Assembly (NCBI GenBank): GCA_902777355.1
Contig: CACYTU010000021.1
Coordinates: 17,237-81,236, forward strand
Source of the DNA: an uncultured Lachnospiraceae bacterium
GTDB lineage: Bacteria; Bacillota; Clostridia; Lachnospirales; Lachnospiraceae
DNA length: 64,000 nt
Reading direction: 5' to 3'
Under the pieces are notes generated by a model, which was given only the letters and a program-made list of their open reading frames with translations, made no database searches and was not told the origin of the DNA. Within the stretch, counting starts at the first letter, position 1. Each line of letters begins with the position of its first letter. The position numbers were made by a program, and so were the translations under genes. Shown piece by piece: positions 4,887-9,712 of the stretch.

Positions 4887-6293
4887 TCACAGATGCCGGT
4901 ATAGTCTCCCCGGCTCCAGACCGCCGCGGTCTGATGCGAGCTCCTCCAGTGTTACCAACGAAAACCCGCGGCGCACCAGCTCCGGGATCAGGTACCGGGC
5001 CGCATCGGCAGTCTCGGTATAGATGTCATGGAGCAGTACAATATCTCCGTCCGACACTTCTCTCAGAACACGCTCCAATGTTTCGCGCGCATTCCGTGTC
5101 CGCCAGTCCCAGGGGTCGATGCTCCATTTGATGCAGGAGAGTCCCAGATCTTCCACTATCTTTAATACAGCACTGTCTGTTTCCCCGCCGGGTGAACGCA
5201 TGACCGTAGGTGCTGTCCCGCAGGCGCGCAGGATCGCATCAGAAGTTTTCTCAATACTCAGGCGCCCTTTCTCCGGAGTGAGACGGCGCAGGGAGTCATG
5301 GTCCCAGCTGTGATTGCCAATCTGACAGCCATTTCTCACCATGCGCCTGAGCAGGGCAGCGCCTTTCTCCACCTTGTTCCCGATAACAAAAAAGGTGGCC
5401 CTGGCGCCGTTCTCTTCCAGAATCGAGAGGATCCTGTCCGTTGTCTCTTCGGAGGGCCCGTCATCAAAAGTCAGCGCGATCCGCGGCGGAGCCCCTCCTG
5501 CGCTCTGCACGGAAAAACCCGCCATTCCTGCTAACTCCCCGGGGCTGAGTGTCAGACCCTCTGCCTCCTGCGCGTCAGGATCCTGCAATGAAGCTGTCGC
5601 ATTCTGTTTATTGCCTTTCAGGCTGAAAAAACGAATTTCGTAAATCTGACTATATTCGCTCAGATACCGTTTCCCGGTATGGGGATCCATGACAACCGCG
5701 TCATCGGGTGTCAGCCCGGTCACTGCAAGAAAGTGAACCGCACCCCGTCTTCCAGACACCGTGATCAGGCAATACATTCCTTTCCCGATCAGCTCTGCAA
5801 GTTTTTCTCTGGAATAACGGGCAGACCCGCGGTATGTAATCGGATAGAGACCGCTGATGGAACCAACATCCAGATTGGCAGTTGAGAAAAAACCCCCGCA
5901 CTGAATCAGTCTCCGGTTCAGGATAAAGGGATTAAAGCGCCTCTCGTCCGTTTCTGTTTCGATTCCATAGAAGCGGAGCAGATCGGCAATGGCACATACA
6001 AGACAGCCGCATTCCCGGATATAATGATAGTCCGCGTCGGGAAACTCATCAGCCGGCCATGCCTCCTGCTCATTCCACCTTGGATCGCCCTGCAGGAATC
6101 CTTCAAAAGTTCTGGCTTCGTTCATTTGAGTTCTGGCTTCGTTCATTTGAGTTCTGGCTTCGTTCATTTGAGTTCTGGCTTCGTCCATTTGAGTTCTGTC
6201 TTCGTCCATTTGAGTTCTGGCTTCGTCCATTTGAGTTCTGGCTTCGTCCATTTGAGTTCTGGCTTCGTCCATTTGAGTTCTGGCTTCGTTCAT
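4887..6293 (-). CDS. C39-like domain fused to NodB polysaccharide deacetylase
   Basis: 468 residues from the ATG at 6293. Residues 1-61 are nine copies of a 7-residue repeat (MNEARTQ or MDEARTQ). Residues about 65-235 look like a papain-like C39-type peptidase: a Cys-rich ECGCLVCAIADLLRFYG helix, AVHFLAVTG with the histidine, and MDPHTG with the aspartate. Residues about 275-455 are a NodB deacetylase with TFDDGPS, NHSWDH, RSPGG, DPWDW and LLHD. NodB enzymes remove acetyl groups from peptidoglycan or other GlcNAc polymers. No signal peptide is visible, because the repeats occupy the N-terminus; export is therefore unclear. The ATG overlaps the stop codon of the LRR gene (ATGA), with GGAAGGA just upstream, so translation is coupled. 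Confidence 0.85.
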   Translation of the reverse strand: MNEARTQMDEARTQMDEARTQMDEARTQMDEDRTQMDEARTQMNEARTQMNEARTQMNEARTFEGFLQGDPRWNEQEAWPADEFPDADYHYIRECGCLVCAIADLLRFYGIETETDERRFNPFILNRRLIQCGGFFSTANLDVGSISGLYPITYRGSARYSREKLAELIGKGMYCLITVSGRRGAVHFLAVTGLTPDDAVVMDPHTGKRYLSEYSQIYEIRFFSLKGNKQNATASLQDPDAQEAEGLTLSPGELAGMAGFSVQSAGGAPPRIALTFDDGPSEETTDRILSILEENGARATFFVIGNKVEKGAALLRRMVRNGCQIGNHSWDHDSLRRLTPEKGRLSIEKTSDAILRACGTAPTVMRSPGGETDSAVLKIVEDLGLSCIKWSIDPWDWRTRNARETLERVLREVSDGDIVLLHDIYTETADAARYLIPELVRRGFSLVTLEELASDRGGLEPGRLYRHL

Positions 6294-6297
6294 TTGA
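6109..6297. repeat. 21-bp tandem array over a translation start, nine copies
   Basis: Nine exact-length 21-bp units, 6109-6297, differing mainly at C/T in the codon after ATG (Asp or Asn). Each unit carries CAAATG in frame, so each offers an ATG. The outermost unit includes the ATGA junction with the upstream LRR gene, so the array appears to have grown from the initiation region itself. Confidence 0.9.
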
Positions 6298-6805
6298 GTT
6301 CCTTCCAAGTTATTGCACCGGGAGGAATCATGGCGTCGTCACTGATCTCAACATTTTTTCCACAGATCAGTTCAGTCAGCCGGGTGCACCCGCTGAAGGC
6401 GCCGCCGTAAATCTTTTTCAAGCCGGATCCGCAGACCACCTTGCGGAGGTTCCTGCAATCCTTAAAGGCATATGGGGGAATCGCTGATATTCTGTCCGGA
6501 AGAATGATCTCCTCCAACTCACATCTGGCAAAAGTCTGCCCCCAGAGATACTTCAGTGAAGCCGGCAGCTCCACATGCTTCAATGCTGTACATCCATCAA
6601 AGACAAACTCCCCCAGATCCGTAACTGTATCGGGAAAGTGGATGTCCTCGATTTCCCCGTGTCCGGCAAAGAGCTTGTCGTAAAGGACTGTGATCGGTTT
6701 TGCGCAATACTGGTCCGGAATCACGACATGGGCCTCATCTCCCGCATATGTCATAACTGCAATCGATAGTCCGTCATCATTTGCCTTAAACGTGTATGTC
6801 TGCAT
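6290..6805 (-). CDS. Short BspA-type leucine-rich repeat protein
   Basis: 171 residues with about four LRR_5 units, each of the form L-x-x-I-x-F/L-P-x-x-V-x-x-I-G-x-x-A-F-x-x-C. Examples are IHFPDTVTDLGEFVFDGC, VELPASLKYLWGQTFARC, IILPDRISAIPPYAFKDC and the following VVCGSGLKKIYGGAFSGC. No signal peptide or cell-wall anchor is visible, so it may act in the cytoplasm or be incomplete. AAAGG lies eight bases before the ATG at 6805. It sits between the Cys-tail membrane protein and the NodB fusion, all on the minus strand, and its stop codon overlaps the next start. LRR proteins of this kind usually bind other proteins. Confidence 0.8.
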   Translation of the reverse strand: MQTYTFKANDDGLSIAVMTYAGDEAHVVIPDQYCAKPITVLYDKLFAGHGEIEDIHFPDTVTDLGEFVFDGCTALKHVELPASLKYLWGQTFARCELEEIILPDRISAIPPYAFKDCRNLRKVVCGSGLKKIYGGAFSGCTRLTELICGKNVEISDDAMIPPGAITWKELK

Positions 6806-6837: not shown

Positions 6838-6909
6838 TTTCCACATGGACTCTGCCGCGGTGGATGAATTCATGACTTGCTTTCCACATGGACTCTGCCG
6901 CGGTGGATG
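6838..6909. repeat. 29-bp direct repeat with 43-bp period
   Basis: TTTCCACATGGACTCTGCCG and the nine bases after it occur identically at 6838-6866 and 6881-6909. One copy encodes the last residues of the Cys-tail protein (IHRGRVHVE on the minus strand); the other lies beyond its stop codon. It is a duplication of a gene 3' end. Confidence 0.85.
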
Positions 6910-8315
6910 CTGTCCTTAAAGAAGTCCTTGACTGAGCAGCCGGCCCGTCCGGAGGAAGCGCAAGCGCAGGCGCAGGCGCAGCTGGAGGCGCAGGCACAGC
7001 TGGAGGCACAGGAGGAGGCGCAGGAAGACGCGCATGAGGAATGCGATTTGCGGCCGCTTCCGGAACTGCGTCCGCCGGAGCGGCGGCTGCCGGAGGAAGT
7101 CCTGACCGGCACGTTGATCACATTTACGTGGATAAAGGTATTGGGGCTGCTGCCGTATCTGTAAGTACCGTTTTTGCTGTAGTTCTCCGGCTTTTCCAGA
7201 TCCTTCTCTTCAACGATCTCCTTGCTCTTAATCATGCTGCGTCCGCAGTAGGCGCAGTTGTCCTTGCCCTCCTCGCGTCCGGCTCCGCAGCCGGGGCAGT
7301 TCTCATAGTACTCGATTTTCGTCCGGGTGATCTTCTTCTGGTATTCCGGGCCTTCGGAATCACTTCCGAAGCCAAATCCTTTGGCAATCCACATCAAGAA
7401 CCGCACGGGCAGCACTATGAAAATAAAAAAGAAAAACACTAAGCCTATGAGGCCAAAGAGGAAGGAGCCGTCTTCATATTCATATGTATCGGAATAATCA
7501 TAGGAATCGTCCCCTCCCCCGTCTACATCGTCAGAAGCCTGACGGTCAGGGGAAAAGCCGAAGGCGTCGTTGGGGTAAGCCACTGTCATGGAGTACCGGT
7601 CACCGGGCTGAAGACTCGAAGAGAAGACCAGATATCCCTCCTCCTGGAGGCATTCGGGCTGCCAGGCTCCGGCTTTATCGGCGTTCCAGCGAATGGTCAG
7701 GTCTTTGATCTCCATCCCGTCAAACCAGGCCGGTGTATACATGAAGACCGTTTCTCCCTCGACAAAGCGGTCGATCTGGTACATGTGGTCCTGTACAAAA
7801 GAGAACTCGAAGCTGGCGACTTCGTCCTTGTAATAACTGCGGTCCAGATAGATCGCCAGAGAAGAGCCCTTATCCTCTATGTGGTCGATACTGTCTCCCA
7901 GCGCCTTGACCTCAGAGTGGTTGGAGTTGGGCAGGCCGATATCCACCCAGTCGAGGGGACCGTACTGCTGGTCGTCCAGAACCTTCCAGTCTATGTGGTA
8001 GGTCATCTGCAGGGAGGCGTCCTCCTGCACATCCACAGTGATCAGAAAGTGTTCGATCTCATCGGTAGGACTGTCTGCCCTGACTGTCATTGTGAAGACT
8101 GAAAAGGGGCCGGCAAAGCAGAGGAAGAATATCATCATGGCCGCCGTCAGAAGCAGGACCAGGCGTTTTCCGGATAAGCGCTTTTCCTCAAAGTGTTTTG
8201 TGCCTGAGTGTTTTCCCTCTGAACGTTTTACTTCTGACTGTTTTCCCTCTGATTGTTTTCCATCCCATTTACTTTTCGCGGGGTGCATTTTCTGTATATG
8301 TATTTCCTGTCTCAT
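6870..8315 (-). CDS. Membrane protein with zinc ribbon and ten-cysteine tail; candidate radical SAM substrate
   Basis: 481 residues from ATG 8315. Residues 15-50 are charged imperfect repeats around KQSEGK. Residues 51-75 form a signal or membrane segment ending at VRADS. Residues 80-285 are an extracellular beta-rich domain of the DUF2207 kind. A second membrane segment follows at about 290-318 (FLFGLIGLVFFFFIFIVLP). A cytoplasmic zinc ribbon has CPGCG and CAYCG. The tail, from about residue 420, is Gly/Ser/Arg-rich and then has four CASS units, CA repeats and GRAGCSVKDFF, ten cysteines in all. The gene overlaps the radical SAM stop codon (TGATG) and has AGGAGGT seven bases upstream, so the two proteins are made together. 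Similar CACACA...GRAGC tails are recalled from other Clostridia beside SPASM enzymes. Thioether modification of the tail is inference. Confidence 0.8.
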   Translation of the reverse strand: MRQEIHIQKMHPAKSKWDGKQSEGKQSEVKRSEGKHSGTKHFEEKRLSGKRLVLLLTAAMMIFFLCFAGPFSVFTMTVRADSPTDEIEHFLITVDVQEDASLQMTYHIDWKVLDDQQYGPLDWVDIGLPNSNHSEVKALGDSIDHIEDKGSSLAIYLDRSYYKDEVASFEFSFVQDHMYQIDRFVEGETVFMYTPAWFDGMEIKDLTIRWNADKAGAWQPECLQEEGYLVFSSSLQPGDRYSMTVAYPNDAFGFSPDRQASDDVDGGGDDSYDYSDTYEYEDGSFLFGLIGLVFFFFIFIVLPVRFLMWIAKGFGFGSDSEGPEYQKKITRTKIEYYENCPGCGAGREEGKDNCAYCGRSMIKSKEIVEEKDLEKPENYSKNGTYRYGSSPNTFIHVNVINVPVRTSSGSRRSGGRSSGSGRKSHSSCASSCASSCASSCACASSCACACACASSGRAGCSVKDFFKDSIHRGRVHVESKS

Positions 8316-9712
8316 CAGCAATACCTCCTAAGGGGACACTCGCCGGTCAGCATCGCGGAATAGTCCCGCCGGGTCTGACAGGCTTCGCTGTTCCAGATGT
8401 CTTTCCAGTCATCCGTCAGCATATTTCCCAGAGGCTGACCGGTGAGCCAGCTCTGGCAGGGCACCACGTTTCCGCCGGGGGTGACCGCCATGTTGGAGAG
8501 GCAGGCCCCGCAGGAAGGGGAAGGAATATTCAGTTCTTCAAATACTTTTTCGTCCAGCCAGCCGGGAGAGGTAAAGGCGATCTCCATGCCGTTCTGGTGG
8601 CAGTAAGCGACGGCCTGGCGCAGGATTGCCTCCAGTTCCTCGCTTCTAAGCTGCAGGGCTTCCGATTCGGCCTGGGCGGCGCTTCCGGTGGTAATCAGAC
8701 CGGAACAGGTCACATAGATGACTCCAAGTCCGTGCAGGAGCTCCAGCGTTTTAACGTAATCCCGGTTTACCGTACAGAGCGGGGTGTTGATGCTCACTGA
8801 CAAGCCCTGGGCGACAGCGTTTTTGATCCCCGCCAGGGTATCCTCATAGCGGGCGGCACCGACCAGGCGGTTGTGGGCATCCGGGTCCGCGGAATAGAAG
8901 GTGATCTGCACGCTGTCCAGCTCTGCCTTTCTCAGCTTTTTGCAGTAGTCTGGAGTCAGACGGATCCCGTTGGTGTTTAAACGGGAAATAAACCAGCGGG
9001 CATAGGAAATGAGCTCAAAGATATCTTCCCGCATGGTCGGTTCGCCTCCGGTGAAGGTCACCTGGGGGATGCCGGCCGCCCGGCAAAGGTCCAGGATCTT
9101 TTTCCAGTCCTCCGTGGAGAGTTCCTCCTCCTCAGAGAGATCCTGCCCGGCGGCATAGCAGTGAACGCACTTCTGGTTGCAGTGCCAGCTGCCGTTTTTC
9201 GTCATGGCACTGACCAACAGATCCATGCGGTGGGGAGCCTGCATAAAGGGGGCGTAATCACCGATGTTCATATAATGGACATCCGTGGTCACTTCCTCGC
9301 GGTAGGCGATCTGACGGATCGTCGTGTAGATAGTCCTGATGTCCCTCTTGATCCGTTTGCGGGATAAAACGGGAACGATCTTCTTCATGTTGTCCGCTGT
9401 GCGTTCCTGGATGTTTTTGATATCCTCTTCTCCGATTTCCTTGCCATCATACTGGTTAGTCTCCCTGATCAGCTCTGCCAGGATCACCGCCCATATGAAA
9501 TTGACGGGCAGAATATCCGTCCCGTTAATGATGGCTATGCTGGGATGAAAGACATTTTCCTCCGCCTTGGGCGGAATCAGGTGGATGCGGATCGCGCCCG
9601 GCCCGTCAGGGTTCAGAGTGGTGTGCAGCACTTCCGCAAAAAAAGAGTCCATATACGTCTTCAAATTGCGGACCGTCTTCGTCTTGCGAAAAAGCAATGG
9701 TATTTTAGTCAT
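8315..9712 (-). CDS. Radical SAM/SPASM peptide maturase
   Basis: 465 residues. The N-terminal 165 residues are family specific (HPSIAIINGTDILPVN, then a charged helical region). The radical SAM motif is CX3CX2C at Cys178, Cys182 and Cys185 (WHCNQKCVHCYA), followed by TFTGGEPTMRED. The SPASM region at the C-terminus has cysteines at about 401, 404, 419, 445, 459 and 465, enough for auxiliary iron-sulfur clusters. Enzymes of this architecture install thioether or carbon-carbon crosslinks in ribosomal peptides. No free precursor peptide is seen nearby; the downstream translationally coupled protein with its Cys-rich tail is the best candidate. AAAGGA stands five bases before ATG 9712. Confidence 0.93.
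   Translation of the reverse strand: MTKIPLLFRKTKTVRNLKTYMDSFFAEVLHTTLNPDGPGAIRIHLIPPKAEENVFHPSIAIINGTDILPVNFIWAVILAELIRETNQYDGKEIGEEDIKNIQERTADNMKKIVPVLSRKRIKRDIRTIYTTIRQIAYREEVTTDVHYMNIGDYAPFMQAPHRMDLLVSAMTKNGSWHCNQKCVHCYAAGQDLSEEEELSTEDWKKILDLCRAAGIPQVTFTGGEPTMREDIFELISYARWFISRLNTNGIRLTPDYCKKLRKAELDSVQITFYSADPDAHNRLVGAARYEDTLAGIKNAVAQGLSVSINTPLCTVNRDYVKTLELLHGLGVIYVTCSGLITTGSAAQAESEALQLRSEELEAILRQAVAYCHQNGMEIAFTSPGWLDEKVFEELNIPSPSCGACLSNMAVTPGGNVVPCQSWLTGQPLGNMLTDDWKDIWNSEACQTRRDYSAMLTGECPLRRYC

Follow-up and report, generated by a model that had tools for sequence, protein, structure and literature searches.

A radical SAM enzyme and an adjacent membrane protein with a cysteine-alanine tail: a candidate enzyme-substrate pair of Lachnospiraceae

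In a 64,000-nucleotide stretch of DNA from an uncultured Lachnospiraceae bacterium (assembly GCA_902777355.1, contig CACYTU010000021.1, positions 17,237 to 81,236; the whole of this stretch is referred to as the window), two overlapping genes encode a radical S-adenosylmethionine (SAM) enzyme, here called R, and a membrane protein, T, with a ten-cysteine tail built of CASS and CA units. Across the genome samples analysed, R and the Cys-tail protein show strict co-occurrence. Because this pairing, the invariant, peptide-like tail and the domain architecture of R, which is that of maturases of ribosomally synthesized and post-translationally modified peptides (RiPPs), agree with one another, we infer that R acts on the tail of T and modifies it. 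Computation established the pairing, the conservation of the tail and the sequence families, and the proposal that the tail is the substrate of R is well supported by these comparisons. It is likely, in our assessment, that R and T form a dedicated enzyme-substrate pair whose product is kept on the membrane protein. More tentatively, T may represent a membrane-protein family, old in the phylum, in which an enzyme bearing a RiPP recognition element (RRE) knits a cytoplasmic Cys-Ala tail into a permanently attached polycyclic thioether structure. If so, RiPP chemistry would be serving as a permanent post-translational modification of a receptor-like membrane protein.

An earlier sequence-only reading of the window, whose overall interpretation is partly supported by our analysis, had singled out these two genes. 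As it described, a radical SAM enzyme and a membrane protein with a ten-cysteine tail overlap at TGATG, where the stop codon of R (TGA) and the start codon of T (ATG) have one base in common, and the sequence bears out what it ascribed to T: a length of 481 residues, two hydrophobic segments, a zinc ribbon and ten cysteines in the tail (Table 1). It placed GRAGC at the C-terminus of T, where SVKDFF and 15 further residues in fact follow.

Co-occurrence and conservation of the enzyme and the tail

A family-level sample of 200 genomes, counting the window's own, contained R in 16 and T in 18; the two share 16 genomes, and in these the genes are adjacent. Both additional T matches were discarded, one being restricted to the zinc ribbon (G073) and the other to a weakly similar, tail-less domain with 20% identity (G082), and R was found in neither genome. 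In a second sample, of 392 genomes drawn at order level, a profile covering just the tail matched 11 genomes and a profile of R matched 10, all ten R genomes being among the eleven; the eleventh tail match (G284, E 9e-4) and another marginal one in G000:C90 are chance frames. Three genera of this sample (g201, g154 and g23) include some listed species with both genes and others with neither. The regular occurrence of the tail without the enzyme, which the sequence-only reading had named as evidence against its proposal, was thus not seen across these 392 genomes. Since four genomes (G000, G079, G190 and G193) are present in both samples, the family-level and order-level counts are not to be summed. 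Across 398 phylum-level genomes, the tail-only profile matched two, the window's own genome and G555, and neither in these nor in the 392 order-level genomes did it yield a convincing match on proteins other than T-like ones.

The same association was apparent at the level of individual loci. Scanned with the R profile (tblastn, E ≤1e-3), genome_contigs yielded at least 503 R-similar stretches, possibly including other radical SAM proteins, of which we kept the best 80, each at least 60% identical to R and some of them from genomes of the other samples. Lachnospiraceae is named in 57 of the 80 locus titles, and many are of gut or rumen origin. The tail, recognized by its sequence pattern, lies directly downstream of R in 73 loci, in an open frame starting 1-119 bases past the match, and the remaining seven contigs stop no more than 1,256 bases from R. 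Two further observations concern single loci: one contig carries, beside its R-T pair, a second Cys-tail copy of T in divergent orientation (L132:35-1300, minus strand), and in another locus (L125:6001-7353) R is interrupted by a single in-frame stop (codon 129 of the matched stretch) while the T tail is intact, possibly through a sequencing or assembly fault.

The ten tail cysteines of T span residues 428-460. Their density (10 in 34 residues) compares with 6 in the runner-up among the window's 33 long open reading frames, T included, and has a binomial probability of about 2e-10 per stretch against the window background. A stronger argument comes from the conservation of the tail among relatives. 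In an alignment of 16 proteins (the window's T and 15 relatives), mean column identity is 36%, yet the tail CACACACA, the GRAGC motif and the following K and F are invariant in 16/16, corresponding to the pattern CACACACAxxGRAGCxxKxF. A larger set of tail cores contained one exception, L147, with CACACASSGGGRAGC. This set was drawn from 102 sources, 95 of which had a core; L132 gave two, for a total of 96 cores in 92 distinct DNA versions. The seven sources lacking a core are contigs ending near R, and pattern-based picking lost no source with enough sequence. Over the 15 codons of the core, the 92 versions differ at a synonymous rate (pS) of 0.73 and a nonsynonymous rate (pN) of 0.076, showing purifying selection and indicating that the protein sequence, not the DNA, is under conservation; the amino-acid changes are mostly a G/S switch at two positions.

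This pattern of conservation bears on a reading in which the tail, without being covalently modified, serves R as an arm that binds a metal or cluster or carries sulfur, or as a membrane tether. The cysteines are no more invariant than the alanines, GRAGC, K and F, which goes beyond simple metal-binding needs, and R has the architecture of a RiPP maturase with an RRE-like domain (see below). We therefore consider such an arm or tether unlikely, although the CXCXCXC sequence resembles that of metallothioneins, the tail is predicted to be disordered, and strict pairing would also be expected if R depended on T.

A similar pair was found in a distant lineage of the phylum, in three of the five searched genomes of one small class (G555, G675 and G641) and in a genome of a different family (G560). 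Here, the T-like membrane protein is longer than T and ends in SCACACACACA(SS or GG)GGCT, the R relative has a fuller set of C-terminal cysteines than R, and the gene order is reversed relative to the window, with the T-like gene first. All four complete distant T-like genes have both the CA tail and an adjacent R relative. A profile built from the T-like proteins of G555, G675 and G641 matched 5 of 398 phylum-level genomes, namely those three, G560 and G932, where the T-like fragment is broken off by the contig end. The outside domain of the distant T-like protein matched no Pfam family at cut-offs, and the distant R profile had no match in viral_contigs. Profile-to-profile comparison aligned the two R groups over 352 columns (33% identity, E 2e-47); for the two T groups, the alignment covers 121 outside-domain columns (97% probability). 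From these alignments, R, T and the CA tail were probably inherited together from an old pair; trees of R with the other radical SAM proteins of the genome left deeper relationships unsettled owing to long branches. The persistence of the pair in two lineages of opposite gene order, together with a peptide-like tail as the most conserved part of T, makes it very improbable that R acts on another substrate (a small molecule or another protein) with T as a merely co-transcribed partner, an idea to which matches of R to the NirJ2, AhbD and MoaA models, far under their cut-offs, would otherwise lend some weight.

Architecture of R and T

R is a member of the radical SAM superfamily (PF04055, 88.1 bits against a cut-off of 29.5) and also exceeds the cut-off of the SPASM family PF13186 (33.5 bits against 21.5). 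The sequence-only reading had called it a SPASM radical SAM enzyme on the basis of its CX3CX2C motif and six C-terminal cysteines. The motif and the cysteines (residues 401, 404, 419, 445, 459 and 465) are present; a full seven-cysteine SPASM domain is not supported, as only three of the six are invariant. These are C401, C419 and C459, in the 16-protein and in a 46-protein alignment alike; C404 and C445 reach at least 90% in the 46-protein alignment, but less in the 16-protein one. Accordingly, the seven-cysteine SPASM motif CX9-15GX4C..CX2CX5CX3C..C (PMC6231123, cited, like the other papers below, from excerpts of its text) is not found in R, whose invariant elements are CX12GX4C and C459. 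Because there are only three invariant cysteines, we regard the C-terminal domain of R as Twitch-like. Among the 25 of 64 NCBIfam matches listed, R falls under the curated cut-off of every model (NirJ2, AhbC/D, MoaA, PqqE, ACGX, SkfB and others), and the top score is that of NirJ2 (116.6 against a cut-off of 500). A place in a defence system was rejected, since PADLOC matches at E ≤0.01 are viperin models alone and correspond to the generic radical SAM core, and a link to mobile elements was not seen: none of 72,556 plasmid records matched R at E 1e-20.

An AlphaFold2 model of R (predicted local distance difference test (pLDDT) 87.4, predicted template modelling score (pTM) 0.87) places strands at residues 29-33, 41-46, 58-62 and 66-70 and helices at 72-86, 95-112 and 118-136 ahead of the radical SAM barrel, which is followed by a small C-terminal domain. 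The predicted order of elements at the N-terminus is compatible with the three-strand, three-helix winged-helix RRE. In Foldseek searches, the top matches of the model were SkfB, SuiB and 5why, with query TM-scores of 0.46-0.56; SkfB is also the best Protein Data Bank match of R by sequence profile, and 5why is a structure of a thioether-forming maturase, identified as CteB (PMC8326336). Together, these comparisons support a RiPP-maturase architecture for R, the RRE part of which is predicted. In one relative (L067:9021-10823, G062), the RRE-like region of R holds a long repetitive insertion of GGRKxAREG-type units.

The model of T (pLDDT 77.9, pTM 0.50) contains a confident beta-sandwich between two helices, and pLDDT in the tail is below 50. 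With a net charge of +7 ahead of the first hydrophobic segment and 12 basic versus 45 acidic residues between the segments, the protein has a charge pattern that suggests a topology with the sandwich outside and the Cys-Ala tail in the cytoplasm. T belongs to no family: its three NCBIfam matches at E ≤1 are all weak and unrelated, the SCIFF model TIGR03973 gave no match, and DUF2207 (PF09972) scored 12.9 bits, under the cut-off of 24.4. Five of the 16 T proteins do match DUF2207 at E ≤0.5 (best 1.7e-4), and the N-terminal domain of T resembles that of DUF2207 membrane proteins; the excerpts of the paper on one of these, SMU.243, never use the word cysteine (PMC10457818). A fold search with T returned beta-sandwich matches of low TM-score (a ribophorin-type oligosaccharyltransferase subunit and M1 peptidases).

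These features also weigh on whether T could be a precursor, its modified tail being cut off and released as an ordinary RiPP. The maturase architecture of R and the patchy distribution of the pair would both fit. However, sactipeptide and ranthipeptide precursors are short peptides with a leader and a core, and T, with its 481 amino acids and two hydrophobic segments, has a confident folded domain unlike a leader; its predicted topology would keep the tail in the cytoplasm, and no peptidase or transporter is common to the 16 neighbourhoods. Release of the tail thus seems quite unlikely.

Proposed modification and comparison with known systems

We propose that T spans the membrane, exposing the beta-sandwich domain on the outside and the Cys-Ala tail to the cytoplasm, and that R binds T through its N-terminal RRE-like domain. 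The CX3CX2C cluster would generate a 5'-deoxyadenosyl radical, and the auxiliary Twitch cluster would hold the tail cysteines, to be joined to nearby carbons, most likely as thioethers. We further infer that the modified tail would remain on T. Thioethers are our best guess by analogy, as several of the nearest enzymes make them; as to function, one could guess at sensing or signalling at the membrane.

Several observations weigh against this proposal. The support for tail modification is all comparative. CXC-rich sequence is also typical of metal-binding proteins. At E ≤1, the Pfam RRE and PqqD models do not match R, so that the RRE assignment rests on the predicted model, and the Foldseek TM-scores of R are only moderate, at about 0.5. 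No RRE leader stands out: the sequence ahead of the tail is not alike in the two lineages, and KDF, which follows the tail, is missing from the distant one. In addition, the tail-only profile missed three of the four distant tails (G675, G641 and G560, which were found by the distant T profile in an equal-sized phylum-level draw), and distant tails without R could go unseen; as the profile is blind to some variants, the search for tails without the enzyme is sound mainly inside the window's own family. The leader of SuiB does not engage the SuiB RRE (PMC6231123). Alanine serves as an acceptor in ruminococcin C1, but is not a general one, as changing the acceptors of subtilosin to alanine stopped bond formation (PMC8172795).

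Among known systems, R has the same predicted domain order as SkfB and other sactisynthases (RRE, radical SAM and Twitch or SPASM domains). SkfB comprises an RRE, a radical SAM domain and a Twitch domain with an apparently open cluster site, and has three visible cysteine ligands to the auxiliary cluster, likewise the number of invariant C-terminal cysteines in R (PMC6231123). Here, in contrast, R would act on an integral membrane protein, at its tail, and not on a short peptide, and no export or peptidase gene is common to the neighbourhoods. The CteB/SCIFF and freyrasin-type ranthipeptide systems, of which SCIFFs are widespread in Clostridia (PMC8326336), have Cys-rich substrates, as is proposed for R, and 5why is among the closest folds to R; T, however, matches no SCIFF model and is not a free peptide. 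QhpD offers a precedent for a radical SAM enzyme that installs thioethers in a non-RiPP protein (PMC8326336), although its target, quinohemoprotein amine dehydrogenase (QHNDH), is an enzyme, whereas the target proposed here is a disordered membrane-protein tail. This likeness is one of description, and no QhpD model is among the 25 of 64 NCBIfam matches of R listed.

No listed match in Pfam, NCBIfam or PADLOC names the R-T pair (for NCBIfam, 25 of 64 matches for R and 25 of 69 for the distant R). In the open-licence literature searched, we found no description of such a pair, nor any paper joining radical SAM with DUF2207, with ACGX, or with CACACA, cysteine and SPASM together; an earlier mention elsewhere is possible. 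We rate as new the proposed kind of substrate, the maturase chemistry itself being known. RRE-bearing radical SAM enzymes are known mainly from small peptides, and the tight pairing of R, a predicted one, with a membrane-protein tail in many gut and rumen bacteria suggests in-place modification of cellular proteins by a compact system of two genes.

Gene neighbourhood and feature positions

Only the R and T families are common to all 16 neighbourhoods, the next-ranked families occurring in 4 of 16. The leucine-rich repeat (LRR) gene (6290 to about 6808) and the C39-like genes, which the sequence-only reading had suggested as partners, were rejected as such: BLASTP turned up relatives of neither beside the pair in any of the 15 related loci (E ≤1e-5, covering over half of the shorter protein). 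Two of these loci (G039 and G079) carry little information on the LRR gene, as their contigs end within 0.7 kb downstream of T. In the branch whose T proteins lack the zinc ribbon, a third gene lies directly ahead of R in seven of nine loci (Table 1), with no match in L066 and L175. Its products are membrane-protein-like and 276-336 amino acids long, and the three that were scanned match no family above cut-off.

Table 1. Positions of R, T and their features in the window, and of the third gene in related loci
Feature	Position	Strand	Basis
R, radical SAM enzyme, 465 amino acids; RRE-like, radical SAM and Twitch-like domains	8315..9712	(-)	Sequence; PF04055 and PF13186 above cut-off
RRE-like N-terminal domain of R (predicted), residues 28-136, strands then three helices	9305..9631	(-)	AlphaFold2 mean pLDDT 87; long Foldseek alignments to SkfB, SuiB and CteB
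CX3CX2C cluster motif of R, C178-C182-C185	9158..9181	(-)	Sequence; invariant in 16/16 aligned R
C-terminal Twitch-like region of R, residues 401-465; C401-X12-G-X4-C419 and C459 invariant	8318..8512	(-)	Pfam, alignments, sequence
Shine-Dalgarno-like AGGAGG within the end of R, 8 bases 5' of T start	8324..8329	(-)	Sequence
T, 481-amino-acid membrane protein with Cys-Ala tail; start overlaps R stop	6870..8315	(-)	Sequence
First hydrophobic segment of T, residues 52-70	8106..8162	(-)	Hydropathy; helix in model
Beta-sandwich domain of T, residues 85-254, predicted outside the membrane	7554..8063	(-)	Model pLDDT mostly >90; acidic loop, positive-inside rule
Second hydrophobic segment of T, residues 286-304	7404..7460	(-)	Hydropathy, model
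Zinc ribbon of T, C340, C343, C354 and C357; missing in 5/16 aligned T	7245..7298	(-)	Sequence, alignment
Ten-cysteine tail of T, CASS and CA units ending CACACACASSGRAGC	6936..7034	(-)	Sequence, alignments
KDF motif directly 3' of the tail; possible recognition element	6921..6929	(-)	K and F invariant in 16/16; missing from distant lineage
Third gene ahead of R in related loci	L063:7352-8203; L064:10448-11278; L065:10747-11589; L067:11044-12054; L172:5446-6366; L173:5278-6195; L174:5526-6464		

Repeats were also noted in and around the locus. A 29-base direct repeat (6838-6866 and 6881-6909) lies across the end of the T gene, and codons for the last residues of T reappear through it in the gap ahead of the LRR gene. 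The listing of tandem repeats in the window has 41 rows, some of them for one and the same array. At 6108-6301, a 21-base unit is present in 9.2 copies (97%) and encodes the ARTQMDE-type repeats with which a polysaccharide deacetylase-like protein starts.

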